In this document: positions 16,330 to 45,610 of the stretch, piece by piece
Layout: every line of letters begins with the position of its first letter
Numbering within the stretch: position 1 is the stretch's first letter
Assembly (NCBI GenBank): GCA_963971425.1
Contig: OZ020517.1
Span: 8,806,501 to 8,870,500 of the forward strand
Source: Bryoerythrophyllum caledonicum
Lineage: Eukaryota; Streptophyta; Bryopsida; Pottiales; Pottiaceae
DNA length: 64,000 nucleotides
Reading direction: 5' to 3'
Made by a program: the position numbers and the translations under genes
The notes under the pieces: model-generated
Seen by the model: the letters and a program-made list of their open reading frames with translations, nothing else
The model's database searches: none
Told to the model about the DNA's origin: nothing

Positions 16330-16860
16330 CACTCCCCCGCACAAACCCACGTCCTTTCCACCTCAAATCTGTGATCCTAAAACCCTAAACCTCACAAAAA
16401 AAACCCTTGCAATTCAACAATCGGTCTAGAAAACCTAACTCACCCCGGCAATAGAAAGACAAACCCTCGTCAAACTCGAAACCCATCATCGAGAGACACT
16501 GCATCGATGATTTCGATAGACGAGGTACCGGCATCTCTCAGGTTGCAGATCTATACCGGCATGAAGCCCGGACAATACCTCGTCACTCTCGTTGTGAAAC
16601 CAATACTTGAATGCTTGCAGCAGCTTCTCTCTCTGTGGCTATGGAGTTGCGGATCGCTAGTTGAGAGACTTGATCCTCCACCGAGAGAGGGAGAGAGACC
16701 GCGCCGTGGTGATGGATGTCTAGGATTTTCAGTTAGGGTTTGACTTGCGCAAGTCACGGTGCTTTCTGGTTGAGGTTGATGCAGGTTGAAGCCACGATTG
16801 TGTGAGAATGTGACTTGATCAAGAGCTTGTTTGCTGGAGATTGGGTTTCGGGCTTTCGAG
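16330..16860. promoter_or_regulatory. Divergent promoter between the CANIN and TMEM45-like genes
   Basis: Only 531 bp separate the start codons of two head-to-head genes, so both promoters and leaders must share it. A GA-rich stretch (16677-16698, gagagaggg type) lies near the plus-strand gene. A short plus ORF (16507-16743) has no recognisable domain. Confidence 0.6.
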
Positions 16861-17864
16861 ATGGTGAGCCAGGGCGGGCATGTTCTGCAAGGGATTATTT
16901 TTCTGTCGCTAGGAGTATGGCATCTGTTCTGCTTCTTTGCGACGTGGGTGAAGTCGCCGCGGGAGTACACTGCGCGCGCGTGGTATCCGGTAGGGTTATT
17001 GCCGGCGCGGTACAAGCATCTGGAGCTGCACATTCTGCTGTTCCTGCTCCCGCTGGCGATCTTCTACGACCTGGGAATCTCGGCGCACTTCCAGCCGCAA
17101 CGCGACGGCGGAATGCCGACGAGCAGCATCATGGGGTTCGAGCACGTCACCATCCTCTTCATGTTCTGGCTGTTTGCGTTGACGGTGCTCGTGAGCGACG
17201 CCACCTCGCATCTCCCGTTCCCTAGCGAAGGCTCGTTCCTGTTCGCTAGTCTCGCCTTTGGACTGCAGTGGCTGTCCATCACTCACAGCGCAAGCCAGAG
17301 GTCGGATTTCGAAAGGCAGTGCAGCAACCTGCTTGCGTACACCGCGGGCGCATCCGCTGTTTCCTCAGGTAATGAATCTACCGTCATTCTTTTCATCAGG
17401 TCCTTCTTCTTCTAACTGCATTTCTGAGACTTTGTTGTTGTTTGCTTTGTATAGGTCTGCTGGTGATTCGCCCCCGGGCTTTCCTTGTCAACTTGGTGCT
17501 CTGCCTCTCGCTCATCTTGCAAGGGACCTGGCAGTTCCAGATGGCGCTCTCGCTCTACTCAGAGAATTACATTCCCATCGGGTGCCAGTATACTCCAGTG
17601 AACTACGGCCCGGGTGACTTCACGCTCTTGAGCACCACGCGCTGCGAATCCACCATGAACGTCCGTGCAGTTGCCCTCATGAACATCGCCTTCAACTGCC
17701 ATGTCATTGCCGTGATTCTCTTCGCCGTCTTCACGTTCGCCATCATGGCCAGGCTCAAAGGCCACCGCCGCAGCGCATCCTTGGATCAAATTGCTGCTGA
17801 TTTCGAACTCGAGGCTGAGCTTGTGCAGCTCAACCAAAACAAACTGAGCTTTGAGAGGAGGTAG
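16861..17864 (+). CDS. TMEM45/DUF716 family multi-pass membrane protein
   Basis: Two exons, 16861-17368 and 17455-17864, join in frame (SS-G-LL) to give 305 aa. The protein has about seven hydrophobic segments, for example QGIIFLSLGVWHLFCFFATW near the N-terminus, then HILLFLLPLAIFYDLGI and ILFMFWLFALTVLVS, and VIAVILFAVFTFAIMA near the end. The internal GFEHVTILFMFW block and the motif TWQFQMALSLY fit the DUF716/TMEM45 family. In plants this family is known mainly through defence or virus-responsive members, and its biochemical role is unclear. The C-terminal tail is charged and probably cytosolic. No key defect is visible. Confidence 0.8.
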
Positions 17865-24038: not shown

Positions 24039-24234
24039 TTAACCGGTAAGGTACCGTGACATTTTCACACCAAAAACACTTCAAAATTGTTGGACTCTAG
24101 TCCAATGAAGGAATAATGAATAAAGGAGGAAACAAAAACGTCGATTTCTAGTTTTGACCGTGGGATCTCAAATACGACTTATCATAAACTTTGACTGCAC
24201 GGATTGAAAGATAATAGTGTTTAAAGTCAAACAA

Positions 24235-24266
24235 AACACGCAATTAAGCAATTATGCACTTGGCCA
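24235..24266 (+). repeat. Left terminal inverted repeat of the large transposon
   Basis: This 32-bp end is preceded by the target duplication ACAA (24231-24234). It differs from the right end at one position near its inner edge. Confidence 0.9.
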
Positions 24267-24807
24267 TATAAAAGTGCACTTGGGTACAACGGCGGCCATT
24301 GCGAACAAAAGTGGCAAAATTGCAAAAAAAAAAAAAAAAATCAATGAAAAAAAATGATTTCCAAAGAAAAAAAATTGAGCTTCTACAACAATATTACGTA
24401 CAATCATGGTTGTTAATATTGAAAGCGGTTTTTTGGCATTTTCAACTAATTTTTGGTGGCCCCTCGTTAATACTAGATAAATCTGTATTTAATATAGTTT
24501 CACAATATTTCAAAGATAGATTTGAAGGATTGTAGTATACAAACCGGCGTAATCACAGAAAAACATAGTTTATGCAAGGGTTGGCAGTTGATTAAAAGAT
24601 ATTCTACGTAGTATATAATGCATACAATGGTGGAAATTAAATATAGATTCTTCTACATCTGGACTTAGCACCAATAGTAAAATTACCTTTACTCTATAGG
24701 ATTAATGACATAACGTCTTACATCACCCTTAGAATATACTACTCTTATACGTACACTATATATCAATTACCATACACAACTAGTATACTCTCATAAAGGC
24801 ACACTAT

Positions 24808-27800
24808 CTACTCTACAGAATTTAGGGCTGCTTGCAAACGGTCGTCATCGATAGCTTCGGTTTGCATTGCAATATATTGTAGGATGTGAGCCTTTGCCGA
24901 TTGAAGAATGCGAATCCTGCTTTCAACTTGCACTCCAAATACATTGCGCTTTCTCCACCCGCTCGCCCCAGACATGGTTCTTTCCAGTGTGTCTACCCAT
25001 GAAAAAATGCATGAATCTTTCTCTACCCAACTATGGCTCTCCCCAGATGGCTCCCAGAATGAATCCATGCAATTTGCATACCGTTGTGCAGAAGACCCAT
25101 GTCCATCAGCAACCCCCCTTTGGATGATGGGCCAATACCAACAAACCTTAATCTTAAGTCTCCATCGGTTTTTTCCTTCCTCAATCACTTTTCCCACATA
25201 GAATGGTACACCGCCTTCTATCTCTGCTTGATCAACACTCAAGGCTACAAACTGTCCACAACGGATATCAGATTGTGGATTAAATGGTGGAAATGGGTCG
25301 TGATTACCTTCATACATTGCTCCTTCTTCGGCGCGTTCCTCAACATAGTTGCGCTCTGTTTGTTGTGCCCTACGCACTGCTTGATTAGAGGGTCTCTCTC
25401 TACGAGAACCAAAGTATCCTCGAGCCTCGGCATTTAGAAGCATGGCCACTACCTGCTCTACAACATCTATCTCGCGATTTTCTTCACTTGCACCATCCAT
25501 TACATCCAAAGATGCGCTCCCTGTAGGTCCGGTGTTGGAGAACTCTGAAGGCCAAAACGGTGAGGAACGATGCTCATTGCTACGATCTTTGTGTGGAAAT
25601 TCAGCTAAATAGAGTTTCAATCTTTCAGCCTCTACTTTTGCCTCACGATTCTTGTCCTCATGCTGCAACCTTTGGATGCACCTTTGTTTATATACAATGA
25701 AGTCATCCAACGCCTTCAACTCCCGTTCATCCGCTCCAAATACTTCCGCAAACGCTGGTCGCTCATCCCTACTTGGCAACGACCTCAAAGTTTTCGTCCC
25801 TGCCTCCGGTCCCCATGGATCCTTGCAATAATGCTTGTGTTGTACTCGAACCACACGAGTCCCTTCTCGATTGTCCATATAGAATCGCATGTGGTGCGGA
25901 AATGTTATGCCCACCAATGAATCCTGACCTGTCAGTAAATGAGGAGTTATAAACAATTTCCAATCCCATACATTCTCTAGCAGCCGGGCGCTAACAAATG
26001 CCTCTGTAGGGGATGTTCCTTGTTCTATAAGACTCATCATTTCCTTCAACGAATCCACGTCCGACCTCTTCAACGTATTTGAAATACAACTGAAGCGTTG
26101 ATCAATATCTTCGTGTGTATGGCCCACTATAAGAAAAGATAGTTCCACCTCCTGAAAAAACCCCAATCCCACCAATGTAGCACATAGAGCAAACATATAA
26201 ATGTTTTTGTTCTCACGCGTGCAGTTGTCGGCCTGAATCCGTAATGTTGGTGGCAAAAAGCCCCTCCTCCGCAGCACATCTCCTATCACGTACAACAATG
26301 TACTTACGACTTGGTTGCTATCGTGTTTGTGGTGAGCCCCGAACCACACGTCGCAATATAAACCAATCCCATGTACAAGAGCACCACACAGATGGGTCTT
26401 CACAAATCGGTGTTCAATATTCTTCACAGTCTGACGCATCCTCGGTACCATGGTCGTGTTTTGGTCCATGCCATCCACGATGATGCACATGTACAACTCA
26501 GGGCTAATATAACACGACCTTTTGAATATCCAATAATGCCTACGTTCTTCCATCTGGTTGCGTAGATGCAACATAAACAACTCCTTTATCTTTATCCTTG
26601 CATCCGCATTGGTGGTTCCTTCCATCGCACATTTATACTCCCAACAATGATAACACTTTGAGAATCTCGAGAATGGAGGTACCTGAACGTGGGGATACTT
26701 GATGCGCCACAACCTCCGAAACGAACTCATAGAAATGGTTTCTCCATTACAAATTCTCTTGACCTCCTCGTTCACGTAATTGAATACATCAAATTTGGCT
26801 GTATTCATAGGAAGGAGAATGAGAGGCACCACTTCGTTGTCACTCTTACGGCGAATACAACGATGAGGTTGAGGACAACCAGCTTCATCGACAAACGATA
26901 TGAAGCAAGCCTCTGCTGCAGACATTCTACTACTCTCTCTTATCGGATCTGAAAGGGTATTGCCGTGAATCGATGTCACTCTTCCATATATTAGACAGTC
27001 CTTCTTCAATTGCTTAAATCGCCTCTGTGAATATCCAACCCCAAGAGCGTAGCAAGCATTGCAAACTTCTTTCCCATCTAACTTTGTTACAAACTTGTCT
27101 CGACGAGTTCCTTCCATCCTTGTGTAAAAAGAAACCAGCATCTGTCTCATCCACGTACTTCGAACTGAAAACTCATTACCCCATGCATTATATCGCATGT
27201 CCAATAGATACCTTGCTGGAACGTCCCTCAAACAATTGCGTTTGCATCCTCCTTGTGCCATTGCAATTTGCACGCTTCTAAGCGATACCTTAGCTGGTGC
27301 AGCTTCTGTCAATGATGGCTCCCTTGAATGTCTCCTTCTCCTATTTTGCATAGAATATGGACGACGTGTTGGTCTAACATAAGCAAATCCATCTACATGG
27401 GGCAAATCTTGGATACTCGAGGGAGTAGATTGGGAAAACGGCGAATTTTCATCTATGGCGTTTGAAGCATGACTACTACGTCGAGACCTCTGGGTGGATC
27501 CTGATGTGTTGATAAACTCAGGAAAATCAAATTTTGTGGCCATCACTTGTGTAGGCGCTATCTGTGATCCAATGTCACCAAGGACACCTGTGATATCGGG
27601 TTCTATAACCACTACACGTAGCAAAGACCGATGCCAACGAATGATCAAGCCCACACACATGCCAAGGCGTTCTCCTACAATCTCTCCGGTCCAATGCAAT
27701 GCATTATCCACCCTAGTGATACGCACCGCCACCTCGAATGGGAACAACTTTGACCCATTCAACTCCATGCCACTTTTCAATGCATGCTCCCTGGTTGCTA

Positions 27801-27999
27801 AGCCCACCACATCTCCTCTCTCAGAAAGCAATTCTACTACCGTTTCTAATTCAGATGTCATGATATCAACAGATCTCTGTTGAATTTGCCTTGCACGTGC
27901 TGCTCGTACTAATCGGGCCCCCACAGAGCTATTGGAAAGCATATTATCCCTTTGGATGTGTGGCCGTATCGAAGGAGTCTGAATCGTGCGGCTCTCCAT
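24808..27999 (-). CDS. Putative transposase, DUF7869-like (about 1063 aa)
   Basis: One uninterrupted frame; ATG at 27999 is the first true start (a GTG codon precedes it). An N-terminal part with Ser/Arg-rich linker is followed by a Cys pattern (GGCKRNC near 253; KEVCNACYALGVGYSQRR near 312-328). The core then shows IIVDGMDQN (about 507-514), LRIQADNCTRENKN (about 586-599) and FLIVGHTHEDIDQRFS (about 622-637). Conserved Asp at these sites and the GHTHxDxD motif resemble the DUF7869 domain of many unclassified plant and animal mobile-element proteins, probably an RNase-H-like DDE fold. The C-terminus (about 910-960; GQFVALSVD...YVGKVIEEGK...VCWYWP) looks like a small beta-rich chromatin-reader-type domain. 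It lies inside the TIRs, so a transposase role is the simplest reading. Catalytic assignment is inference. Confidence 0.7.
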   Translation of the reverse strand: MESRTIQTPSIRPHIQRDNMLSNSSVGARLVRAARARQIQQRSVDIMTSELETVVELLSERGDVVGLATREHALKSGMELNGSKLFPFEVAVRITRVDNALHWTGEIVGERLGMCVGLIIRWHRSLLRVVVIEPDITGVLGDIGSQIAPTQVMATKFDFPEFINTSGSTQRSRRSSHASNAIDENSPFSQSTPSSIQDLPHVDGFAYVRPTRRPYSMQNRRRRHSREPSLTEAAPAKVSLRSVQIAMAQGGCKRNCLRDVPARYLLDMRYNAWGNEFSVRSTWMRQMLVSFYTRMEGTRRDKFVTKLDGKEVCNACYALGVGYSQRRFKQLKKDCLIYGRVTSIHGNTLSDPIRESSRMSAAEACFISFVDEAGCPQPHRCIRRKSDNEVVPLILLPMNTAKFDVFNYVNEEVKRICNGETISMSSFRRLWRIKYPHVQVPPFSRFSKCYHCWEYKCAMEGTTNADARIKIKELFMLHLRNQMEERRHYWIFKRSCYISPELYMCIIVDGMDQNTTMVPRMRQTVKNIEHRFVKTHLCGALVHGIGLYCDVWFGAHHKHDSNQVVSTLLYVIGDVLRRRGFLPPTLRIQADNCTRENKNIYMFALCATLVGLGFFQEVELSFLIVGHTHEDIDQRFSCISNTLKRSDVDSLKEMMSLIEQGTSPTEAFVSARLLENVWDWKLFITPHLLTGQDSLVGITFPHHMRFYMDNREGTRVVRVQHKHYCKDPWGPEAGTKTLRSLPSRDERPAFAEVFGADERELKALDDFIVYKQRCIQRLQHEDKNREAKVEAERLKLYLAEFPHKDRSNEHRSSPFWPSEFSNTGPTGSASLDVMDGASEENREIDVVEQVVAMLLNAEARGYFGSRRERPSNQAVRRAQQTERNYVEERAEEGAMYEGNHDPFPPFNPQSDIRCGQFVALSVDQAEIEGGVPFYVGKVIEEGKNRWRLKIKVCWYWPIIQRGVADGHGSSAQRYANCMDSFWEPSGESHSWVEKDSCIFSWVDTLERTMSGASGWRKRNVFGVQVESRIRILQSAKAHILQYIAMQTEAIDDDRLQAALNSVE

Positions 28000-28061
28000 T
28001 ATCACTATTCAAAAAATAGGAACATTATGGCTGCACATTAGTCAAAATACATGTACTATTG

Positions 28062-29145
28062 TTAACCTTTAAAGCACCATTCATCTGATAAAAGATATGT
28101 TTCTAAACACATATTTACAGTTCAAAATATGATGATGATATTGGACCTTTTGATGAATCAAGTTTGAAATAAAAAAATTAAGAATTTTTAGAGCATGAAC
28201 TCTTTGCACAGAGTCTTTAATCTGAAGATACAATGACAGTTTTACACCAAAAACACTTCAAAATTGTTGGATTCCAGCGCAATGAACAAAAAAAGAAACA
28301 AAAACTTTTATCTCTACTTTTGACCGTAGAATCTCAATTAAGACTTATTCAATAAACTTTGACCGCACGGATTGAAAAATTATAGTGTTTGAAGTCAAGC
28401 AAATGGTTCATTTTGTTCCATGCATGCAGTGGATCAGCAAACTTTGACTTCACTTGGTGTCAATATTTTGCAGTACAGAAGGTCTAAATCCATAACCATC
28501 TTGTTAAGCATGATGTTAGTTCCTTGTACACCAATTTTCAGAGGTAAAGAATGGGTGCAGCATATTCAAAACAACTATGCAAGGAGTGGAAGTTTGGAAG
28601 TTGTTAAGTCACAGTGTCATTTTTTGTGAACTTAATATGTTTTAGATTGGTAATTCAAATCGTCAATAAGAAGGTTTACACCACATAATGTTGTGGAAAA
28701 AATGAAAAGTGAAATATAAAAAATTATCTAGGTTTTAATTGAAAAACAAGAAGTTTTTTTGGTACCTTGTCCAACACCGACTGACAATGTGTGAAATGTT
28801 TGACTTGGGTTGGTATGCTATTTTTCGCCAAAAACAAGAACTTATTTTGACAACATCAAGGGAAATTATATTACTTGCAAGTACTGAAAATCTCACATTC
28901 AACATAGTGTCTTAGCAAAAGTTTTTGGACGTGCTCGACTTGCCTACACTCCCCATTTGAAATTCAAAACCCTTAATTGTTTTGATCAAATGTCCAATTT
29001 AGGTAAAAATTGTTTTCCCACTAAAGTCTTCGTAATGCCTTTCTATAGAAAAAATTTCAAAGAGAAATGGTGGAAATTGACACCATAGGAACTTGACCGA
29101 ACTTTCAAAAAGCCCATTTTGGACACTTGATCCTTTAGGGGTTAA
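28062..29145 (+). mobile_element. TTAA-bounded MITE inside the large transposon
   Basis: It starts TTAACCTTTAAAG and ends ATCCTTTAGGGGTTAA. Its internal sequence matches the split copy around 24039-37643 in the same orientation, and it preserves the uninterrupted version of the large transposon's target site near 28384-28412. Non-coding. Confidence 0.7.
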
Positions 29146-30200
29146 ATATGCTACACCTCTTCTGCATCCCTAAACATTGGTGTAAATAGAACTTGTGGCT
29201 TTTTTTGACATGATGATAACGAATCTAGATCATGTGTGATGCGATTTTTTGAATCCAAGTGAACTGAAACGAAGGGAATCCACTGAACTTAGGGAAGAAA
29301 ATGAACCATGTTGTCTACTTGCTATTACCGACACCATTGGAACTTATTACGATCGCTAACAAAAAAAAAGTTTCTACATCCACATAAAGGTTATTCTACA
29401 AACAACATAGTATAGAAGATCAATCAACAATCAATCTTAAACTTGTATAAAAATAAATGTTTACCTCAAGATACGTTGCAGGTGTTAGCGGTATACACAC
29501 AGATGCTTGATGGCGTTCAATATTTAATCACCATTCCGTCGTTGTTGAACATGTTTTTTAACCCTTCTCACTTTACCTGCACCACATGCATAAAATTTAT
29601 ATGGTAAACTATGCAATAAAACCTCCTAAGTATCATCGTATTACATATACCCCAAAATTTTAATAAAATATGTAAAAAATTTAAACATAAGGAGGAACAA
29701 AGCAAAAGGTCCAAAGTTCAAAAGTCAAACTTTGACTTGTAAACTTGAGGCACAAGGTTCCAACATGGATATAAGGTTTCTATGCAAATCTGGAGGTCAT
29801 TTCTCTTCCCAGTTTCTAAGGTGAGCTCTCTTGCATTCAAAACCTTAAGCCATGTGCATTTTTACTCCATTCACTAATTTCTGTCAACTTTGTGTACTGT
29901 GTAGATTGAAGGAAATTTGCACATCGAGGAGATAATAGCGAATTTGGTAAGCTTCTAACTTTGTTTCAATTCTGCATAGAGGGAACTCAAGGATAGGTAC
30001 ATGATGATTGAAGTTCAGTGAGAGTTACGATAGAGTTAGGTAAATACCAATTTCTGAATACACAAATGAGGACACCAACTTCAGTATGTACAAAATTGCA
30101 ACGTTGAATGAATACTCATACAGCAGTCAAAAACTAGTAAGTTAAACCTTCGTTCAACTGAAATAATTACACCAACACCATACAAATTGAAGTCAATGTG
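29146..30200. other. AT-rich spacer between the two transposon genes, no gene recognised
   Basis: This is part of the central intergenic region of the large transposon. It should include the transposase promoter side. No ORF with a domain is present, and it ends at the assembly gap. Confidence 0.5.
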
Positions 30201-30400
30201 NNNNNNNNNNNNNNNNNNNNNNNNNNNNNNNNNNNNNNNNNNNNNNNNNNNNNNNNNNNNNNNNNNNNNNNNNNNNNNNNNNNNNNNNNNNNNNNNNNNN
30301 NNNNNNNNNNNNNNNNNNNNNNNNNNNNNNNNNNNNNNNNNNNNNNNNNNNNNNNNNNNNNNNNNNNNNNNNNNNNNNNNNNNNNNNNNNNNNNNNNNNN
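30201..30400. other. Assembly gap (200 N)
   Basis: Exactly 200 unknown bases. The length may be a placeholder, so the true transposon size is uncertain by this amount or more. Confidence 0.99.
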
Positions 30401-30640
30401 CCAAACTATTGCTTGCATTTCTCACAACCTCCCCAAACTTCTCTCCTTCTCTCTCCCAAACCCTAGACGCCCACTACTTCTCTCCCTCACCAACTCCCCT
30501 CCATTCCTCTCCCTCACAACTCTACTCTCTTCACCCTCTCAAGCCCTTCTCTCAAACCCTCCTCCAAACCCTCTCTAACACTCACAGCCTCCCTCAAACT
30601 ACTGCCAGGGGTGTGCGCGCGCACACCCCCTCGTAGGACT
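30401..30640. promoter_or_regulatory. Pyrimidine-rich tract and 22-bp palindrome upstream of the second transposon gene
   Basis: About 200 bp of CT-rich sequence, typical of plant 5' leaders, ends in a perfect 22-bp palindrome (30608-30629, alternating GTGCGCGCGCAC core). Irregular 'ttgataccc' repeats follow to about 30830. It could be the leader or promoter of the plus-strand gene if that transcript is spliced; this is inference. Confidence 0.4.
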
Positions 30641-30839
30641 ACCCAACTTTGCAAAGGATTGATATCCTCCATTGATACCCACATTTCCAAAACCCTAGTA
30701 GCAAACCCTAATTGATACCCGACTTAGATACCTCGGTTGATAACTTGGAATTGGTACCTATGAACTCATACCCTGGTGGTGATACCCTCGCTATTGATAC
30801 CCAATATACCTTGGTCCATAAATGATGTTGAGAATATCT

Positions 30840-31150
30840 CAACCCAAAATCTTTAAAAATGCTTGTTTTAGTGCATTTAGCAAGGAAGACAAATTATAGT
30901 TTTTTTGGTCATTTTAACCGTAGGATCTTAATCCTTACCTATTAATTAATATGCTCACAAAATTTCATAAATTTTCACCGCACGGATTGAAAGATTATAA
31001 TGTTTGAAGTAGTGAAAAGCCTCATTTTCTTCACTGCGTTTTCTGGATCAGCAGACTTTGATTTCAATTGGTGTCACATTTTTGCACTATAAAAGGTCTC
31101 AATTAATTACCACAATGTTAAGGATGATGTTAATTTGCTATATACCATTT
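30840..31150 (+). repeat. Partial copy of the TTAA-family repeat
   Basis: The sequence around 30910-31130 ('ccgcacggattgaaagatt', 'tggatcagcagactttgat') matches the middle of the TTAA-bounded copies. The element's ends are not clear here because a tandem array follows. Confidence 0.65.
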
Positions 31151-32285
31151 TTTAGAGTTAGAAAAATAGTGTAGCATATTCAAAAAAATTGTGCAATGAG
31201 TGGGGGTTCAAAAATTCTCAATTCACATTATGTTTTTTTGTGAACTTCATATCGTTTGAAATGAGAATCCAAATGGTCAATACAAAGGTTTACATCACAT
31301 AATGCCGTAGGAAAAATCAAAAGTGAATCAAACAAAGATCTCAAAGTTTTATGTGGAAAGGTAGAAGTTTTTTGGTACTCTCCTCAAGAATAAGTGACAA
31401 TGATTGAAAATTATTGACTTGGATTAATATGCTATTTCACCAAAGAACCAAGAACATGCTTAACATGATGGTATTGGATGTAGATCTTGTGTAGTTTAAA
31501 AGATTTTAGAGGTAGACAAGGGGTGTAGCATATTAAACAAAAAATTGCAATGAGTGGAGGTTCAAAAATTCCCAAGTCACGTTATGTTTTTTTTTGAACT
31601 TGATATCGTTTGAAATGAGAATCCAAATGGTCAATGAGAAGTTTTACATCGCATAATGTTGTAGGCAAAATCAAAAGTGAATCATACGAAGTTCTCAAAG
31701 TTTTATGTGGAAAAGTAGAAGTTTTTTGGTACTCTCCTCGAAAATGTGTGACAATGTGTGAAAATGATTGACTTGGATTAATATGCTATTTCGACAAAGA
31801 ACCAAGAACATGCTTAACATGATGGTATTGGATGTAGATCTTGTGTAGTTTAAAAGATTTTAGAGGTAGACAAGGGGTGTAGCATATTAAACAAAAAATT
31901 GCAATGAGTGTAGGTTCAAAAATTCTCAATTCACGTTATGTTATTTTTTGAACTCGATATCGTTTGAAATGCGAATCCAAATGGTCATTGAGAAGTTTTA
32001 CATCGCATAATGTTGTAGGCAAAATCAAAAGTGAATCATACGAAGTTCTCAAAGTTTTATGTGGAAAAGTAGAAGTTTTTTGGTACTATCCTCAAAAATG
32101 TGTGACAATGTGTGAAAATGATTGACTTGGATTAATATGCTATTTCACCAAAGAACTAACAACATGCTTAACACGATGATATTGGATTTAGATCTTCTGT
32201 GGTGCAAAAGTTTTTAGAGGTAGACAAGGGGTGTAGCATGTTCAAAAAAGTTGTGCAATGAGTGGAGGTTCAAAAATTCTTATTC
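31150..32285 (+). repeat. About 355-bp tandem array (about 3.2 copies)
   Basis: The landmark 'gtgtagcat' recurs at about 31169, 31523, 31878 and 32231, a period of 353-355 bp. 'ggattaatatgctattt' recurs with the same spacing. The unit derives from the internal part of the TTAA-family repeat. The array stops about 60 bp before the second transposon gene. Confidence 0.85.
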
Positions 32286-32342
32286 CATACTAATAGTGAC
32301 TATCGTTTTGTAATGATATACAGGTTTTTTGAGTGTTGCGTT

Positions 32343-35300
32343 ATGGCACCACCAAATATTGATAGAATCTGGGAGAGCCACGGCTGGTGGATCGCGGAAG
32401 TGGATGAGTCGAGCGCCTTCTTATGGGTGACGGATTATCCCTTTGAGCTGGGGAAGCGTACATCGGCGTTGGGGAAGAGTTTTGGCAAAATCCAGGCAAT
32501 CACTCTTCGACGTGATGATATGATATATGTTACTTGCGCAGTGGGTCCAGGTCAATCGGAGGTGAAGACTTCTCTTTCGAAGAAGTTGCTTCTTGCACCT
32601 GTCCCTTTGAATCTTCTTCAAAATCCAGGTCAGGTGAAATTTCTCAAATCATTGCAGACGTTTTGGTTGAACATCTCTCTTGCGGTACGTACCGCTAGAC
32701 ACAACAACGTCTTAGCCTGTTTAGCGTTATCACCGGAGATGGTGCTGAAGGCTAAGAAGATTATGGAGGAACATATTAGATATGAAGCATTTCGGGAGAA
32801 GGACCCATCACGTGCGACAACTCAAGCCCCACCAGCGGAACCAGAAGATACAGAAGTTTATCGAATTCTTGCTGAGCCGTTGCAACTGGATTGGCGACCA
32901 CTGGAGGGGGGGAGAGGAAGTGGAGGCCAACATCCCACCACAACTTCTGAGGTACAGACATTACCGAATCCTCCATTAACGAGTAGACGTCCTACGAAGA
33001 GGCCACGACGTGTTGACAGTGATGTAGCTTCTGGTTCAAGAGAAGGCCCATCAAGTTTGGATCCAAGTGGGAGGAGGATGATTGGGAGAAGTGCAAGATC
33101 TGGTGGCAGGATTCCTAGGTCGGGGCTCAGGACGTCTGATGGTCATCATAGGGCCCCTACATCTACACCGGGAGATTCAGCTGATTTGTCAGCCATGGAG
33201 CCGGAGGAAGAAGATTTTCACAACCTTCCAGACAATATACCAGAGGATTTTGAAGACAATGCAGAGATACCACAGGATGTTCCAACTCCTATGAATTTAA
33301 AAGCACCAGTGCCTACAACAGAGGAGATTGCGAAAGGATCAGTGTGGGGGAATTTTGTGTTTATGGCACACATGGACCGCATTGTCTCTGTAGAGAATCC
33401 GGAAACCAACCACCGGGTTTTATCACAGAAGAGGGTCAGAGAAGTATTCAACCGCTTACGAGACCCAGAATCCGCGACTCGGGTGAGTAGATTGGTACTT
33501 CGACCGATCAGATACATCGTGCATACTACCACCGATGATGGTGTCGTTGAGAAGGAAGAGCTGCCATTTCCGTTGGTAGGTACTGCACGAGAGTTTGAGC
33601 GCATGTTCATTGCACACGGGAGTGCTTCTGCACAGGGTGCCATGGGATCCCAGTATTCTTGGCTTCAAGATCATATCATTTGGGAACCGGTGGATGGGCA
33701 ACACATAGTAGCAGCTTGTAAGTTTGCACAGCAGCAGTGGAGAGATGGTACTATGCCTTTAAACGAGTATCTGGACACGTTTGAGCGGCGGGAGGCCTCT
33801 TTTGTGGTGTATGATGATCGTCGCTTTTACATTGAGAAGTCTGCGCGGATCAACGTGGCGGAGTTCCAGAGACATTCATATTCTACCAAAGACGAGGATT
33901 TGAGGAAGATCCGTCAGATTTGGGATCTATACGGGAGGCCTGATAGCACACTACGTGTGGACGATGCACGTAGGGCAGTTGCTTTGGTGAGTGCGGCAAG
34001 TGCAGTGCATAAGTTGCCCAAGGGGGATGGAGTTCTCACGGTGAAGAGGTTGGCCAAAAACATGGAGGATCTGACCAATCATGCATGGAATCCGAGCAAT
34101 GACTGCTTCGAAGCTATCATTCAAGTATGCAAGGACTACGAAGACGGCATTCTCTTTTACAGCAAGGAGGAAGAGGAGAAGTGGAAGGACATGGCGAAGA
34201 AGAAAGAGCTGGATCCAAATGTGGACGTACGACCAACAAGAAAGGAGATGACGCAGAATTGGTTGAGGCCTCTAGGTAGGGTTCCGAATCCATATTATCT
34301 TCGGTTGGCAAAGTCTGCTGCAGCGAAGCCGGTGAGGGAGGATGGAGTAAGACCTTCTCAAGCATATTACTTCGACGGTGTAAAAGACAAGAATCCACAT
34401 CCTCGTACGATTGCCGGTGTGGTTGACCGATATCAGAGACGAGAAGCTGTGATGAATTCGATCCATTGGTTGATGGTGGAGAACAAGGAAAGTACACCTG
34501 ATTCCATGGAAGAGTTCTTTCGTATCCGTGTAGCGAAGTATTTTCCGAGGAGTAGTGCACAACTTGATATCTTTGGGAAGCTTTTGAATGCTGCCACGAA
34601 AAAAGCTTGGAGTGCTCCTGTGCGGGGGAAGGTGTCTAAACTGGAAGACATAGGCTACCTCATCCCCCCTTCCATCAGGTTTCATTATGGTGACATTGCA
34701 GCAGGGGGGCGTGGATACATTGGACTGTCCGTGGATGTGGGAGAATTGGCTACTGCTAATTGGGAATGGCAGATGGAAGTCAAGAGGCCAGGGCAGAGCG
34801 ACACAGAGAATCTTCTTCCGGTTCGGTGTAGAAGAGGATTATTCCGCACCGACTACATAGAGTTGGGAAAACCATGTTTGTGGGTGATTGATTGTCGACG
34901 TGGCGGTGGGAGGCATGGAGATGGTCATTGGGGAGACGCCCAATTATCCGCAGCTTTTGCAGAGCTGACATTATGGATGGCAAATATTGAACGATGGAAC
35001 GTCATCTTCTTGTTACCAGCGGCTGTGTATGCCAATGAGGAGTTTTTCACGAAGGTGAAGCTTCCAGAGGGATGTACTATGCGACGTGGATGCTGGGCTT
35101 TTGATCCCAACTCGGTTAATCCCTATGCTCTTGATTTTACAGAGAATGGGCGTTTGGAGCAAGTAGTACAACCGATTGGCGATGTTGTGATTTGTATGCA
35201 GCACCCTGTGGGTACATCTCCTGGCCCGAACTATGTTTCTGGAGACGTTCCACTTCCACTTGTATTCTTGGATCACTGGAGTGAGGCACGCCAACCCTCT

Positions 35301-36287
35301 GAAGTTGATTCACTTGAGAGATCTCCATCAGAGCTGGCAAGACTAGTGGGCTCATACTTGCCCCGTGGTTGGGGTTTAGTGGCGTGTAACATATCTACGG
35401 CCATTCCCACGATCCTTGAAGGAGATTTCCAGGGATCTGAGGTTTTCATCATTGACGATTGTACAGACAGAGTTTCATTCCTGTACAATGAGTTGTCCGA
35501 CAATTTCCAAGGACAACTGTTGGTCAGGACTGGTGGAACAAGTACTGGTTGCAACATTGTACCTGAGACCGAAGATGCGGTTGGTGGAGTGAGGAATGAA
35601 GAGGACAATGAGGATGGAGGTGGTTTACATGAGAGATTGCCACGTTCAGGTACCACTGAAGATTTTTCATCTGGCAGTGATTCAGACGCCGATGAGGATG
35701 GAGAGAGAATTCCATCAACACAGCGGACGGTGGGAGATACTTCAGGGGCGTCGTCTGCAACACCTACAGAGAGGATGCAAGATAGAGGTGTAGTAGATGT
35801 TAGTTTGGCGGCAGGGGCAGGACGGGGGCGTTCATTTGATGGTCCTAGGTTGGAGATGGAGGAAGAAGGATTGGATTCATGTGAATTTTTTTCGGTGCAG
35901 AGGAGGATTCGACAGCCTTCGATGCCTCCTCAATCAGAGCCTGTATCGGAGACACAAGAGACGTTCGGAGGTACTCAGAGTGATACCGGACCAGGTTTGC
36001 CTCCCATTCCAAGATCTAGCGTATCTGAGGACATCATTGCATTTCAGGGGGCCTTCTCATCAGAGCGAGAGATGTCCTTCAATGCAAAGGATGGCTTTTT
36101 CTATAATGATGACAGGGTAAGGCATACGCGGGAGGGTGTTCCTGGCAATTATCGATTTGTTGAGCGTGCGTCTATTGGCATCGAAGACGTGGGAGATCGT
36201 CCAGTGGAGGATCATGAACTATCCGCTATGGTAGGTAGCGCCATTGGACACGTGGAGGGAGTCGTTCCGCCAGCAGATGAGCTGTGA
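32343..36287 (+). CDS. Second large protein of the 12.65-kb transposon, function unknown (about 1314 aa)
   Basis: One uninterrupted frame. The frame is open from 32262 without an ATG at its start, and an in-frame ATG also occurs at 32313; 32343 begins a more protein-like sequence (MAPPNIDRIWESHGWWIAEV). I do not recognise the family. Layout: an N-terminal globular part (1-180); a low-complexity Arg/Ser/Pro linker (about 200-290); an acidic patch; a central globular region (about 330-1020); and an acidic, Ser/Thr-rich tail. The segment about 840-1015, with LWVIDCRRGGGRHGDG and later SLERSPSELARLVGSYLPRG, faintly recalls the layout of N6/N4 DNA methyltransferases, but no canonical DPPY or FxGxG motif is intact. 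It lies within the TIRs, divergent from the transposase, so it is probably an accessory transposition protein. Confidence 0.65.
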   Translation: MAPPNIDRIWESHGWWIAEVDESSAFLWVTDYPFELGKRTSALGKSFGKIQAITLRRDDMIYVTCAVGPGQSEVKTSLSKKLLLAPVPLNLLQNPGQVKFLKSLQTFWLNISLAVRTARHNNVLACLALSPEMVLKAKKIMEEHIRYEAFREKDPSRATTQAPPAEPEDTEVYRILAEPLQLDWRPLEGGRGSGGQHPTTTSEVQTLPNPPLTSRRPTKRPRRVDSDVASGSREGPSSLDPSGRRMIGRSARSGGRIPRSGLRTSDGHHRAPTSTPGDSADLSAMEPEEEDFHNLPDNIPEDFEDNAEIPQDVPTPMNLKAPVPTTEEIAKGSVWGNFVFMAHMDRIVSVENPETNHRVLSQKRVREVFNRLRDPESATRVSRLVLRPIRYIVHTTTDDGVVEKEELPFPLVGTAREFERMFIAHGSASAQGAMGSQYSWLQDHIIWEPVDGQHIVAACKFAQQQWRDGTMPLNEYLDTFERREASFVVYDDRRFYIEKSARINVAEFQRHSYSTKDEDLRKIRQIWDLYGRPDSTLRVDDARRAVALVSAASAVHKLPKGDGVLTVKRLAKNMEDLTNHAWNPSNDCFEAIIQVCKDYEDGILFYSKEEEEKWKDMAKKKELDPNVDVRPTRKEMTQNWLRPLGRVPNPYYLRLAKSAAAKPVREDGVRPSQAYYFDGVKDKNPHPRTIAGVVDRYQRREAVMNSIHWLMVENKESTPDSMEEFFRIRVAKYFPRSSAQLDIFGKLLNAATKKAWSAPVRGKVSKLEDIGYLIPPSIRFHYGDIAAGGRGYIGLSVDVGELATANWEWQMEVKRPGQSDTENLLPVRCRRGLFRTDYIELGKPCLWVIDCRRGGGRHGDGHWGDAQLSAAFAELTLWMANIERWNVIFLLPAAVYANEEFFTKVKLPEGCTMRRGCWAFDPNSVNPYALDFTENGRLEQVVQPIGDVVICMQHPVGTSPGPNYVSGDVPLPLVFLDHWSEARQPSEVDSLERSPSELARLVGSYLPRGWGLVACNISTAIPTILEGDFQGSEVFIIDDCTDRVSFLYNELSDNFQGQLLVRTGGTSTGCNIVPETEDAVGGVRNEEDNEDGGGLHERLPRSGTTEDFSSGSDSDADEDGERIPSTQRTVGDTSGASSATPTERMQDRGVVDVSLAAGAGRGRSFDGPRLEMEEEGLDSCEFFSVQRRIRQPSMPPQSEPVSETQETFGGTQSDTGPGLPPIPRSSVSEDIIAFQGAFSSEREMSFNAKDGFFYNDDRVRHTREGVPGNYRFVERASIGIEDVGDRPVEDHELSAMVGSAIGHVEGVVPPADEL

Positions 36288-36853
36288 GCCGTGGAGCTAT
36301 ATACTATAGTAGAGCATGCACGCAGTTTAGGTGGCAAGTACGTTAGTATTATGCAGTTTGAGATGTGTCTATCGTTCGGTTGGTGGTATATATTTATATA
36401 TTGGGTGGTCCATATGATATGTTTGATTTTAGAATTCCTCAGCAATAGTGTGGAATTGCTTGATTATGTATGTTTTTGCATTATAAAATACAGTGAGGTA
36501 CTTTACACTGTCTTAGGAATTTGCATATATATTTTTGTATCTCTTACACATTGTATTTGTAGTGCAGTACTCTAAAATCCTATAATAACTCATAACACAT
36601 TTATAATCTCTTTGGGCACATGATCATAATTTTGTAGCATGATTTGCAAACTAAAGTAGAAATCATATATTTTCTAAAAAAAGGTAGCCAATGTAAAAAA
36701 AATATTACTGATATGAGCATAAAGATGCCAATGTATGATACGACAAACACCAAAAAAAAATGACTAAAAACATACTAAACTTTTGCCAAATTTTGATTTA
36801 AAAAAAAGTTATGAGCAAATAACTTGCGGCTTTCTACCACCAACCAGTGCACT
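36288..36853. other. 3' region of the second transposon gene to the right TIR
   Basis: AT-rich, non-coding sequence with A runs, presumably a 3' untranslated region and subterminal transposon DNA. Confidence 0.6.
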
Positions 36854-36885
36854 TGGCTAAGTGCATAATTGCTTAATTGCGTGTT
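36854..36885 (-). repeat. Right terminal inverted repeat of the large transposon
   Basis: Inverted copy of 24235-24266 with one mismatch, followed directly by the target duplication ACAA (36886-36889). Confidence 0.9.
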
Positions 36886-37730
36886 ACAAATGGTTCATTT
36901 CCATCCCTGCGTTGAGTGGATCAGCAGACTTTGACTTGACTTGGTGTCAAATTTTTGCACTAGACAAGGTCTAAATCCATTACCATGTGTTAAGTGTGAT
37001 GTTATTTCCTTAGACACCAAATTTTAGAGGTAGAAGAGGGGTGTAGCATATTCAAAACAACTGTGCAAGGAGTGAAGGTTCAAAAATTGCCAATTTGCAT
37101 TTTAATTTTTTGTAAACTTAATATGTTTTAGATTGATAATCCGAATGTTCAATAAAAACATTTACACTATATATTGATGTTGAACCAAAAAAAAATCATA
37201 AATATGAAGATCTCTAGGTTTTATGTGGAAAAGAAGAAGTGTTTTTTGTACCTTGAGTGACAATGTGACAATGTGTGAAAATGTTTGACTTGGGTTGATA
37301 TGCTATTTTTCACTAAAGACAAGAACTTTTTTATGACAATATGATGGAAAAAAATATTACTTGCTTGTATTGAAAATCTCACATTCAATAGAGTATCCTA
37401 GCAAAAACCCCTATAGAGAGGTGCCCGAAGTGCCCCCTCTCCCCATTTGAAATTCAAAACCCTATAAGTTTGTCATCATATGTTGGATTTAGGAGAAAAT
37501 TGTTCTCCCACTAAGGTCTTAGTAATGTCCTTCTACAGTAAAAATTTAAGATTTTCAAAGTAGAATGTTGGAAATTGAAACCATAGGAACCTAACCGAAC
37601 TTTCGAAAAGCCCATTTTTGACACTTGGTCCTTTAGAGATTAATATTATTTTATTTCAACTTCCACTCTTTACACAAAAATTGTAGTTTGAAGTTTTTTT
37701 TGGTGTGGAGTAGTCAAGGAACTTTAGAGG

Positions 37731-38518: not shown

Positions 38519-40222
38519 CAGTACCCGGAAGAAATGTTACGGGATTTTTACTTAACTCCAATTATACTAGATTACAAATAGTGAACTTCAAGTGACCACT
38601 AGGAGTTCAATTTGTGAGCAATTGCCTTGGGATTTTCACCTATTTGTAGGACTAAGAGTAATGTTGTGAAAAATAACTTGTATGTGGATAATTATCTAAA
38701 ACACCCATGTAAAGTTACAGTTCTCCATTGCCCTATCCAAACTGTGTCCACACGTTTTTCATGCACCGGCTTGCATTGGGCCTCATTACGGCATGACAAT
38801 GTTTTGGACCACTGTTTTGAAGAAGATATGTATGTGATATTGTGTTGTGATTGCATTGTAAGTTGTGGGGGTAACTTTGACATGATTGTATGTGAATTTG
38901 TGACTTGGTTTAGGGTGAGGTGTATTATTTTTGTTGAAACAAGTCTGTTTGGTGTTGCAGGTAGGTTGAGTGGCATAATCTGTTGAGAAAGATGAAGACT
39001 AGAGCGTTGACAGATGCTAAGAAAGGAAAAGTGGTTGGAATGCATAAAGGTGGAATGAGAGATGCGCAGATAGCAAGAGAGTTAGGGATGCCATCTTCCA
39101 CGGTTTATGGTGTTTTAAAAAGTTTTAAGAAACGAGGAACTGTAGTGTCACCAAAGTCACCGGGTAGGCCTCAAAAGTTTACACAGCGCAGAATGAGACA
39201 CTTAGAACGCCTCCTTAATAATGATCGTCGTTCATCACTCACAAAGATTACAAATCAAATGGCAAGTATTGCACATGTTAGTACTCGTATTGTAAGGAAT
39301 GCTTTGAAAACCCTTGGTTACAGAAACCGTGTTGCAGCAAAAAAAACTTTTCTCAATGAGAAGCACAAAGCAGACATGCTAGAAAGTATAAAAGCTGGAC
39401 TGAGGAGGATTGGAAGAAGGTTGTTTGGACCAATGAATCATCTTTTGAAATTGGAAGGAATTCTAGACAAATTAAAGTGTGGCGAAAGGCATATGAGAGA
39501 TATTCATCTAAATGTCTAGCACCTATTTTTAAGTCTGGACGTACTTCAGTGATGGTTTGGGGTGCTTTTAGTGGCTTTGATAAGTCTCCTTTAGTAATCA
39601 TACCTCCACAGAGTAGAAGTGCAAGTAATTTTGTTGATCTTATTTATGAAGGCACTTGAAGTGGGTTTTATTTTCTCCATGATCATCGAGAAGACATTAT
39701 ACTTATGAAGGATGGCGCTCCGGTTCACCGCAGCAAGTTGCCAGAGTTGTGGAGAGGAGCTCATGGCATAAAGAAGTTGAAATGGCCAACCAACTCTCCA
39801 GATCTAAACCCAATAGAGAACTTATGGAAGATAGTGAAAGACAAAGTTCAGAGTACATCGCAGCTACACAATAAAGAAAAATTGGTGGAATCTCTTCATA
39901 GAGTATGGGAAGAGATACCTTTAGACATTTTGCAAACCCTTATTGCTACCATGCCTGCACGTATGAAGGAAGTAATTAGTGCAAAAGGTGCTAGTACTAG
40001 ATTTTGAACACTATATAGGAGAAAGCAAATTGTGTGTTGATTTTGGATTTTTTTCTATGTAAGCAAATTTTATTACTGAAATAGAATCCAAAAGCTTTCA
40101 ATTGCAATTTTTCATATAAAATTCCATGAATTTTTGAGTTCGTATGAGCTTACTAAAGTAGCTCTATAGTACATGTTTTTGGAAAATTTCTGGAAATCCC
40201 GTAACATTTCTTCCGGGTACTG
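38519..40222 (+). mobile_element. Tc1-type DNA transposon with perfect 29-bp TIRs
   Basis: The ends 38519-38547 and 40194-40222 are identical inverted repeats starting CAGTACCCGGAAGAAATG. A TA dinucleotide flanks each side (38517-38518 and 40223-40224), the classic Tc1/mariner target duplication. Length 1704 bp. It contains one transposase frame that is now broken. Confidence 0.95.
38992..40007 (+). pseudogene. Tc1-type (DD34E) transposase, inactivated
   Basis: The N-terminus is a helix-turn-helix (GMRDAQIARELGMPSSTVYG) and a basic GRP hinge. The frame shifts near 39390: the catalytic part continues in another frame as TEEDWKKVVWTNESSFEIG. A TGA interrupts it at about 39657. Downstream are MKDGAPVH and SPDLNPIENLW, with 34 residues between the second Asp and the Glu, so the type is DD34E (Tc1 rather than the usual plant DD39D). 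The first catalytic Asp is replaced by Asn (WTNES where WTDES is expected). The copy is therefore inactive three ways. Confidence 0.9.
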
Positions 40223-41025: not shown

Positions 41026-41603
41026 CTACCATCTAGTACTACCACCCCTGGCATTAATTATAGCCTTAATCCAGTGAGGCATGCTAGCAAGGAGAATTTC
41101 AAGGGTCTCCATGGATATAGCTTCCCATGGCCACTCAGTGCTTTTGATCAGTTCATCTTTGTTGTTTGGCCTCGTCTCCTTTTGTACAAAGTCTTTTAGA
41201 ATCATCCACACATTCTGTATGGGATTCAAGTCCGGTGAGTCTGCAAGCCATGTAATCTTCCTGATCTAATGAGCTTCTCACCATACTACAATGTACTAGG
41301 GCACCATCTTCCATGAGGAAAAGACTTTGAGGATCATCATGCTTATTAAAAAAGCCACTCAGTCCACCCTTGTACACAACATCAACAAAATCAACACTTG
41401 TCCGTCTATGGGATGGCATAAAAACAATGGGGCACTTCTCATAACTTGTAAAAGCGCCTCAAATCATGATGAATGTGCAGCCAGGTTTGAAAATGGGTGC
41501 TAAGCAATCCCATGTATAACGTTCATTAGGTTGTCACCAAACCTTCACTTGCCTAGAATTTTTGTCTATCTCAAATGAGGAACTATCTCTAGAATTTTTG
41601 CCT
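41026..41603 (-). pseudogene. Tc1-type transposase relic, C-terminal part
   Basis: Read on the minus strand: SSSFEIDKNSRQVKVW (about 41580-41530), then MEDGALVH (about 41320) and NPIQNVWMILK (about 41220), in different frames with stops. The catalytic Glu position is Gln (PIQN). With 42624-42900 it forms one old transposase gene interrupted by a LINE fragment. Confidence 0.8.
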
Positions 41604-42475
41604 ATCATCAAAATGAACCACCTGTAAATGTTGAACAAAATCTCAACATACAATTTATTGAATACACATACTGTAACGATAGATTTTCTCCGGAAACCTT
41701 AGAAGCAAAAATCAACAGATACAGACCATTAACTGAAGGTATTGTTGCTAGAGGCTGGAAAATTGACCCCCTTATTGTCATCACAGCTGGTGCTAGAGGA
41801 GCTACGCACATCCCATATATGAAATTAATTGAAGACAAATTTAAAATACCTGAAACCACCATACAAAATACTTTTAAAAACATTATTACCATTGCTATCC
41901 AATACGCTATGCATATCCTCCTCCACAAAAGAAAACTATAAAATCACCAACCCCTACCTCAATTACAAGAGCCACCCTAATTGTAAATAAAAAGTTTTTA
42001 GTAGCTAGGTCTACTTTATTTTTTGTTAGCAAATGTAAGCACTGTCTCAGCTCACGCATGTGGTGGGCTGTTGGTTGGCACCACTCTCTCTTCTGCTTGC
42101 GATTGCTCACTTAGCAGTGCCAAGTCACTACATACCCCACATCTGCTCAAACGAGTCCATCAAGGTTCGAACCCGAACCAGTTATATGAGAAAAACACTC
42201 TCTCCAACCAACAAAGAGCTCGTGACTTGACAATCACCAAACTAGAAAAACACACTACTATACTGCAAAACTCCGATACCTAACCCTACTCAGACTCTGA
42301 CCACTCATGGTCTTTGTTATTGGTCACTGGATACTCAAGTGTCTACTCTCGAAAGGGGGAAGTAGTTCTATCCTTCTATTCCTATGTCCCGTGGACTTAG
42401 GTCTAGAGGTAGAATGAACAAACACTTTATTCACGCCGGTCTCTTTCGGAGACCGAAGTTCCTCTTCTTTTGGCT
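41604..42475 (+). mobile_element. 5'-truncated LINE inserted in the Tc1 relic
   Basis: It starts within the endonuclease-like domain (IQFIEYTYCNDRF, DPLIVITAGARGATHIPY) and reads to a stop at about 41941. A 3' tail of about 530 bp follows, sharing 'gggggaagtagttct' and 'attcacgcc' with the other copies. The protein is about as similar to the 54958-56271 copy as a separate, older insertion would be. Endpoints are approximate. Confidence 0.75.
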
Positions 42476-42930: not shown

Positions 42931-43692
42931 ACATGTATTATATAACATGATTTGTTTGCAAAAAAATAGAGTGTTAGATTGCCAAATCATCTTCCATTCA
43001 TGCATTTCGAGACCTAGCCATCAATCACAAGAGGTACATATGTGCACAGAGACTGAAATTGGCCTAATCCGAAGCATTCAAAAAATGAATTAACACTCTC
43101 AATTTGCACATATCACAGACATGTATATGTAAACTCTCAATTTACATATATCACAAAAACCACAAATTTTTTTGAGAAAAAGTGAAATTATTGAGTGTTT
43201 AAAATACGTCACATGCCTTTTATTATTTATGTTGATTAATCAATTCTAGAGCTATTTAGGATTGATTTTTAAATGAAAGAAGAGGTTAAAACGTTTGGTA
43301 TCCTTGCTTCAATTTACAAATGAGTTTAATTTCTAAAAATGTTTGCCTTATCAAATCACAAACATGAAGTGGAGGAGTCTATTGGAAACGTAATTTCAAA
43401 ACGAATTCTAAAGTGAAGTTGGTTTTGTAAATCAAGACTCTGAAGGAATTGAGGCCTTGATTTCTAAAGGAATCAAGGCCTCAATTACATTCTTTAAACA
43501 GAAAAAACATTACTACGTTTGCAGCCATGATATTTTAAACCATAAACATGCAAGTAAGAAATTATGCCCTCTGAGTTCAAAAATGCACTTATCTATCGTG
43601 GTGGCTATTGCGCACAAATATAATGGAATTGTGGATTTTCAAGGAATAAAGGTTTTCCCCTATAAAGCCCTTCCTGTCAATTACCATTGCAC
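42931..43692. other. AT-rich spacer, no gene recognised
   Basis: No domain-bearing ORF or clear repeat end was found. A 79-aa ORF at 43457 is not supported. Confidence 0.45.
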
Positions 43693-45610
43693 TTAACCCC
43701 TAACATACCAAGAGTCCCCTTGGGGGACCTTTGAAGATTTGGGCATGTTCCTCTTGTGTCAATTTATAAAAAGAAAAAAAGAAAAAAAATTATTGTAGAT
43801 GAACATTACTAAAACCTTTGTAATAGTCCAATATTTTCCGTCAATACAACATTTAATGAAAAAATATTAGGGTTTTTGAAGTTTATATGGGAATAGCAGG
43901 CACGTCGAGCAACTCCCAAAACTTTTGCTAGGACACTCTATTAAATGTGAGATTTTCAGTAGCAGTAAATAATATTATTTCCTTTCATATTGTCAAAAAA
44001 AATCTCTTGTCTTTGGTGAAAAATAGCATATCAGTCCAAGTCAAACATTTTCACATTGTCGCTCATGGTCGGGCAAGGTACCCAAAAATATTCTTCCTTT
44101 CCACATAAAACTTTGAGATCTTCATTTTTTTTACTTTTTATTTTTCCCACGGCATTATGTGGTGTAAATTTTTTTCATTGACCATTCAGATTCTCATTCT
44201 AAAACATATTAAGTTCACAAAAAAATAAAACGTGACTTGACAATTTTTGAACCTCCACTTCTTGCACAATTTGTTTTGAATATGCTACACACTTCCTTTA
44301 CCTCTAAAAATGGGTGTACATGGCACTAATATCATGCTTAATATGGTGGTAATGAATTTAGACCTTGTGTAGTGCAAAAATTGGACACCAAGTGTAGTCA
44401 AAGTTTGTTGATCATTTAAACGCAGGGAATAAAATGAATCCTTTTCTGTTTGTCAGACACTATAATCTTTCAATCTGTTTAAGAAAATTTATGAGTATGA
44501 TACTTAATCCCTAAGAGCCCAAGGCATTTTTCCTCAAGAAACACTTTGAAACTACCATTATCAACAAGTGGCAAGAAAATTTGGTGTTGAAGTATAATTT
44601 GGGGCTTTAAACCATAAGATCTTTAAGAAGACTTTTGTGTAAACTTACCATTTCTTTGGCAACAATCCACTGCACGGATATGAAGATTATAGCGTTAGAA
44701 GTCAAGAAAATGGTTCATTTTGTTCCCTAAGTTGAGTGAATCTACAAACTTTGACTTCACTTGGTGTCTCTTTTTTGCACTACACAAGGTCTAAATCCTT
44801 TACGGTTTTAGTTCCTTGTACGCCAATTTTAAGAGGTAGAGAAGAGGTGTAGCATATTCAAAACAAGTGTGCAAGAAGTGGAGGATCAAAAATTTCCAAT
44901 TCACAATTTATTTTATTGTGAATTTAATATGTTCAAAATGATAATCCAAACGGTCAATAAGAAGGTTTTCACCACATGTTGTTGTAAAAAAAGTGAAAAA
45001 TATGAAGATCTCTAGGTTTTATGTAGAAAAGAATAAGTTAAATTGGTACCTTGCCTGACAATGTGTGAAAATGTTTGACTCGAGTTAAAATGTTTTTTAC
45101 ACTAAAGACAAGATTTTTTTTTAAGATCTTCAAAGAAGAAAATATTCTCTATACATATGAAAAATCTCAATGTCAATAGAAACTTCTAGAAAAAAATTTG
45201 GAGTTGCCCGGAGTCCCCAATTTAACTTTGAAGGTTAATAACTTTCATATTATGTATCCAAAAAATCAAAAAAAAATTTCCTCAAAGATCTTATCAGGGA
45301 CAATCTAGAATAAAAATTTCAAAAAGAAAAGATTTCTTTTCAAATTTTAAATACTTGCCCAAAATATGAAACGTCCTCCTAGGGTTAAATGGGCTCTTAG
45401 GGGTTAATAAATCTTAATTGAGATCCTACGGGTCCAAACTAGAAATAAAAGTTTTGGTTTTCTTCTTTACTCATTGCACTAAAACGATCAGTTTTGAAGT
45501 ATTTTTAGTTTGAAAATGGCTTGAAAATTTACGGGTTGATACATTTTGTCTTGCAAAAATTATGAAATCTTGCAGATATTCATAGGGTTGGCACTTCAAA
45601 TCCATGCCCT
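43693..45610. mobile_element. TTAA-bounded MITE carrying a second one inside
   Basis: The outer copy starts TTAACCCCTAACA at 43693 and reads in reverse orientation to the 28062 copy. At 44514 it is interrupted by a complete related element and resumes at 45408 ('taaatcttaattgagatcctacgg'), matching the order seen around 30920-31000 in reverse complement. The far end, near 45610, is degraded. Confidence 0.65.
44514..45407 (+). mobile_element. Inner TTAA-bounded MITE (894 bp)
   Basis: It starts TTAATCCCTAAGAGCCC and ends GGGCTCTTAGGGGTTAA, a good inverted repeat. TTAA stands at both ends, and the host element rejoins when the insert and one TTAA are removed. Confidence 0.8.

Follow-up and report, generated by a model that had tools for sequence, protein, structure and literature searches.

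Second genes beside the transposase are reported from several eukaryotic DNA transposons, with TET/JBP, SET and a Vandal regulator among the proteins named (PMC12730594) and Fanzor as another (PMC3627910). Sola elements are described as having 4-bp target site duplications, DDD transposases and terminal inverted repeats (TIRs) of 11–1124 bp, with lengths mostly of 2–9 kb and sometimes above 15 kb, and they occur in the moss Physcomitrella (PMC10741241). In prokaryotes, the ParB-methylases of phages and bacteria (Bacillus cereus Bce_0392; Paracoccus phage methylases) place an amino-methyltransferase-like domain behind a ParB/sulfiredoxin (Srx)-like one; Paracoccus phages are reported to have 36 methylases carrying ParB at the N-terminus (PMC6536676), and the ParB domain of a bacterial ParB-methylase nicks DNA (PMC5512222). 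Our analysis concerns a 12,651-bp element in Bryoerythrophyllum caledonicum, located in a 64,000-nucleotide stretch of contig OZ020517.1 (positions 8,806,501 to 8,870,500, forward strand; hereafter the window, to which all coordinates refer). The data support well the conclusion that it is a two-gene, TIR-bounded DNA transposon of the cut-and-paste type, with one gene for a DUF7869 protein and a second for a protein with predicted ParB-like and methyltransferase-like domains. Its ends and insertion site are as follows:

24235..36885, whole element, 12,651 bp as assembled
24235..24266, plus strand, left TIR, 32 bp (inverted-end comparison, window scan, permuted ends)
36854..36885, minus strand, right TIR, 32 bp (inverted-end comparison, window scan, permuted ends)
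24231..24234, no strand, ACAA, left-hand target site duplication
36886..36889, no strand, ACAA, right-hand target site duplication
24039..24234, plus strand, left part of the target repeat, TTAA-bounded
36890..37643, plus strand, right part of the target repeat, TTAA-bounded

The two inverted ends are identical at 31 of 32 positions and are flanked by ACAA on both sides, reproducing two observations of an initial annotation made from the sequence. When the window was scanned with the end and its reverse complement, only the two TIRs matched at 24 or more of the 32 positions, and at 22 or more a single further place was found, at 43545 (23/32). For each of 300 permuted ends the best window match was at most 23/32, a value reached by two of them. 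The element lies in a repeat bounded by TTAA at 24039-24042 and 37640-37643, which measures about 950 bp once the element is subtracted. BLAST of the joined flanks, with a single ACAA, against the window gave 12 rows: two were the flanks themselves, five were partial and stopped short of the junction, and five crossed it, in other copies of the repeat at 28225 (+), 30965 (+), 44478 (-), 44669 (+) and 50820 (-), with 78–85% identity; in the multiple alignment no gap larger than one base was present at the junction. Because the joined flanks align through the junction with these five copies, the locus is a single insertion into a TTAA-bounded repeat, and one copy of that repeat is broken by a 4-bp-duplicating event. 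The empty site that had been proposed at 28384-28412 is a real match, but it belongs to a paralogous repeat copy nested inside the element itself (28217-29145).

The stops of the two divergent genes lie 573 bp (gene 1) and 598 bp (gene 2) from the element ends, in agreement with the figure of about 600 bp given initially, and both frames are free of internal stops. The interior between them contains the following, of which the gap and the complete nested repeat had gone unremarked in the initial annotation:

28217..29145, plus strand, complete TTAA-bounded repeat resembling a miniature inverted-repeat transposable element (MITE), which includes the 28384-28412 match
30201..30400, no strand, assembly gap of 200 N within the element
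30912..32292, plus strand, dispersed-repeat copy expanded into about 3.2 tandem units of 354 bp

The 354-bp array spans 31150-32280, and the dispersed-repeat copy stops about 50 bp ahead of gene 2. Without its nested repeats the element would be shorter than 12.65 kb; the initially reported size holds for the assembly but includes one nested repeat or more that enlarges it, and the true length is uncertain because the gap and a complete nested repeat both lie between the genes. The same gap could be taken as the scar of a scaffolding error that joined two different elements. We consider such an artefact highly improbable, since a chance join would not yield ends matching at 31/32, ACAA beyond both of them, and outer flanks that together make up one repeat, uninterrupted in five other copies.

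Gene 1 has the following features:

24808..27999, minus strand, gene 1, DUF7869 protein (P0001) of 1063 residues, probable transposase, frame open from 28005
25858..26409, minus strand, DUF7869 (PF25273) match in gene 1, P0001 residues 533-716 (Pfam)
26107..26475, minus strand, proposed catalytic stretch D511-D593-E632/D633 of P0001, constant in 14/14 family members, catalytic role putative

The frame runs from the ATG at 27999 to the stop at 24808 with no internal stops, compared with 63 and 65 in the other frames of the same strand. At least 13 relatives, 53–85% identical, were recovered among 8000 scored candidates, and the DUF7869 domain (E 7.3e-51 in gene 1) was detected in all 14 family members. 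Five acidic residues of P0001 (D511, D514, D593, E632 and D633) are constant throughout the family, with acid spacings of 82 and 40 residues. This pattern fits DD(E/D), and gene 1 most likely encodes a transposase. The DUF7869 likeness in the initial annotation is borne out by the domain match, and its transposase role is probable from the constant acids; catalysis is something we infer from them, and the fold model is unusable. DUF7869 was not mentioned in the literature searched, the viral and genome contigs searched contained no relatives of gene 1 or of gene 2, and a sequence search of solved structures with both proteins returned nothing significant.

The C-terminal part of P0001 (residues ~913-1005) resembles, by eye, a BAH or SH3-like chromatin domain; a profile search of solved structures matched a BAH chain to gene 1 at E 2 only, a hint.

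Gene 2 is divergent from gene 1 and has these features:

32343..36287, plus strand, gene 2, 1314-residue protein of no convincing sequence family, frame open from 32262
33351..33875, plus strand, predicted ParB/sulfiredoxin-like domain, gene-2 model residues 337-511, with the motif EPVDGQHIVAA
34755..35513, plus strand, predicted beta-class DNA-methyltransferase-like domain, gene-2 model residues 805-1057, with DCRR in the place of DPPY

Its intact frame (ATG at 32343, stop at 36287) confirms the second protein of about 1.3 thousand residues noted initially. At least nine relatives, with identity down to 37%, were found among about 8000 scored candidates, and the alignment used as a profile query returned the same nine (7,999 candidates scored). 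Gene 2 represents a family of its own, more varied than that of gene 1. Database families were tried and dismissed as weak matches, each seen in one of ten members: six from Pfam (best E 0.1), five from NCBIfam (best E 0.0091) and seven PHROGs (best E 0.0018, no function given). Just 5' of the ATG, within 32300-32343, the string tgatatacag was noted by eye as a possible 3' splice site, which suggests that gene 2 may have a 5' untranslated intron.

Resemblance to the ParB-methylases comes from the predicted structure of gene 2, in which both folds were matched in the same order, ParB/Srx-like and then beta-class methyltransferase-like. For comparison, at least 120 phage ParB-methylase loci gave 111 frames with motif I, 102 of them with a DPPY-type motif upstream; 56 frames lay within the length and spacing limits, and 50 were left after removal of near-duplicates. 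The consensus of these 50 (iidGH.R..aa, TDPPYGV, TQKPVE ... VYDPFLGSGTT ... GRrCYGmEIdPkY) has the same motif order as gene 2 (EPVDGQHIVAA, LWVIDCRRG, LERSPSELARLV ... GLVACNISTAIP ... GSEVFIIDDCTDR), with the motifs paired by visual inspection. All ten members of the gene-2 family share DGQH and DCRR unchanged. None of the ten has a DPPY-type motif near DCRR or a glycine-rich S-adenosylmethionine (SAM) loop, resembling DPFLGSGTT, at the motif-I position, a variable site at which only Thr-Ala is constant. Since DCRR replaces DPPY and the glycine-rich loop is gone, the residues for SAM binding and methylation are absent, and the protein probably does not act as a methylase and is instead a relic that serves some other purpose. 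It also differs from the phage and bacterial proteins in being about three times longer, in having Ile at the ParB-motif Arg (aligned by eye) and in showing no detectable sequence similarity to them. N4CMT of bdelloid rotifers, whose structure was among the gene-2 matches, likewise brings a bacterial amino-methyltransferase fold into a eukaryote; it is described as an active enzyme with an SPPY motif, taken from bacteria and joined to a chromodomain, whereas gene 2 lacks the motif and lies inside a transposon.

Homology of gene 2 to the ParB-methylases would thus rest on predicted fold and motif order, without profile-profile sequence support. Comparison by hhalign of gene 2 with the 50 phage proteins gave no similarity (probability 0.1–0.3%), and column shuffles equalled or exceeded the real score in 23/100 cases for the ParB part, 26/100 for the methylase part and 53/100 for both; the methylase-part query (545 columns) included the relatives' tail past model residue 1066, which could only dilute the comparison. 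The mean predicted local distance difference test (pLDDT) score of the gene-2 model is 53.9, a moderate confidence, and none of its 210 Foldseek matches in the PDB reached E ≤ 0.001. Three long viral structure alignments have root-mean-square deviations of 25–27, so the gene-2 and viral domains do not superpose as a single unit; at worse E-values, alignments of 771–899 columns were also obtained with some long viral proteins that are unrelated. All of these observations weigh against the ParB-methylase assignment. They leave some room for the resemblance to reflect no more than a common Rossmann-like and alpha/beta arrangement, with gene 2 an unrelated new combination of folds, an explanation that we hold to be unlikely in view of the shared order of domains and motifs.

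We think it probable, notwithstanding these points, that the locus is an intact cut-and-paste transposon in which a DUF7869 DD(E/D) transposase is accompanied by a non-methylating accessory protein built on the two-domain phage ParB-methylase plan, a ParB/Srx part followed by a beta-class amino-methyltransferase fold. Further observations that count against this reading are that the gene-1 structure model (pLDDT 39.0) lends no support to an RNase H fold, that the 200-N gap separates the two genes, and that a second copy with both genes was not seen. In addition, P0015, a 728-residue relative of gene 1, lies on a contig of 673,695 bp, larger than any listed for a gene-2 relative, and none of the gene-2 relatives reported comes from a contig that long; P0015 is possibly a copy without gene 2, although its missing N-terminus tempers its weight against the pairing of the genes.

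The condition of the copy was assessed against columns constant in all relatives. The gene-1 copy in the window departs at one of 136 such columns (eleven of the thirteen relatives at 0–4, the other two at 8 and 19) and the gene-2 copy at six of 154 (six closer relatives at 0–6, three distant ones at 24–37). So few departures argue against decay, without demonstrating activity; together with the two intact frames they give weak support to the earlier description of the element as young or active, neither of which they demonstrate. A tblastn search of the rest of the window with the 24 members of the two families found no relative of gene 1 or gene 2 (best E 0.25). A divergent lone left end is present at 43545-43632; its 23/32 match is alone within chance, and it was retained because the alignment extends over 88 bases of the element's left end with a local score of 66 (against a maximum of 39 in six shuffled windows and of 40 at unrelated places in the window). 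No partner end was found for it in the window, and this lone end points to older relatives of the element in the same genome.

Given the matching ends, the duplication and the constant acids, the gene-1 protein would recognise and bind the 32-bp inverted ends, cut, and insert with a 4-bp stagger. The ParB-like part of the gene-2 protein probably binds DNA or nucleotide without methylation, the methylase-like part probably acts without catalysis, as a module for binding or docking, and the whole protein may help the transposase or shield the element from silencing; each step of this role is inferred. Second proteins thought to act on host silencing are known from fungal transposons with TET/JBP dioxygenase (PMC12730594) and from plant VANDAL elements with VANC (PMC10398659), although those are other proteins in other superfamilies. 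Gene 2 might instead be essential for transposition, for example as a target-selecting or end-pairing subunit rather than an anti-silencing accessory. It has its own family of relatives, more varied than gene 1, and in proteins of phages and bacteria the ParB/Srx fold goes with the nicking of DNA and the use of NTPs (PMC5512222). In many superfamilies a single gene is enough for a DNA transposon, which counts against an essential gene 2, and we regard that role as rather doubtful, preferring the accessory one.

The element could also be a Sola member with an unusual second gene, requiring no new superfamily. By description, a 4-bp duplication and TIRs are common to both, the DDD-type transposase of Sola has a probable counterpart in gene 1, the element's length falls within the wide Sola size range, and Sola too is reported from a moss. 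However, Sola2 duplications are AT-rich AWWT (PMC3627910), a preference to which the ACAA found here does not conform; in the parts of the Sola literature searched there was no link to DUF7869, and those accounts do not mention a ParB/methylase-like second gene. Membership of Sola appears doubtful to us. We propose, no more than tentatively, a new eukaryotic superfamily with a DUF7869 transposase, 4-bp duplications and a second core gene derived from a phage-type ParB-methylase, which would have lost methylation, gained newly conserved residues and been reused for transposition or escape from silencing. Among titles and abstract openings, in a search outside which most subscription journals lie, no eukaryotic transposon was found to be described as encoding a protein that combines ParB with a methyltransferase. 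The element's initial description as undescribed is accordingly plausible, DUF7869 being unmentioned in the literature searched and gene 2 having no convincing family, but Sola remains a candidate by description.

Elsewhere in the window, a TTAA-bounded MITE-like repeat of about 0.9 kb occurs in three copies:

44504-45407, MITE-like repeat, nested within another copy of related sequence
50060-50988, MITE-like repeat
61988-62910, MITE-like repeat

MITE-like ends resembling TTAANCCCTAAGAGCCCA had 10 matches in the window at no more than three mismatches, compared with 0.13 expected. Remains of a Tc1-like transposon occupy 38965-40004, divided between one reading piece with HTH_Tnp_Tc3_2 (38965-39516) and another with DDE_3 (39660-40004), and a retroelement-like frame that matches RNase H lies at 54961-56274, with a related shorter frame at 41579-41938. 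Likely host genes are represented by a CANIN-domain piece (14749-15591) and by a DUF716 gene split in two (16819-17861); the latter is consistent with a plant host but does not prove it.

If this interpretation is correct, DUF7869 gains a function, that of a transposase, and a ParB/methylase-like protein joins the known second genes of eukaryotic transposons. One proposal holds that DNA-modifying enzymes are guided on phage DNA by ParB-like proteins (PMC6536676), and a non-catalytic ParB-methylase in a transposon would therefore tie prokaryotic conflict proteins to the conflict between transposon and host. As the copy is intact, the proposal is directly testable, and gene 2 may represent a new means by which a transposon deals with its host.
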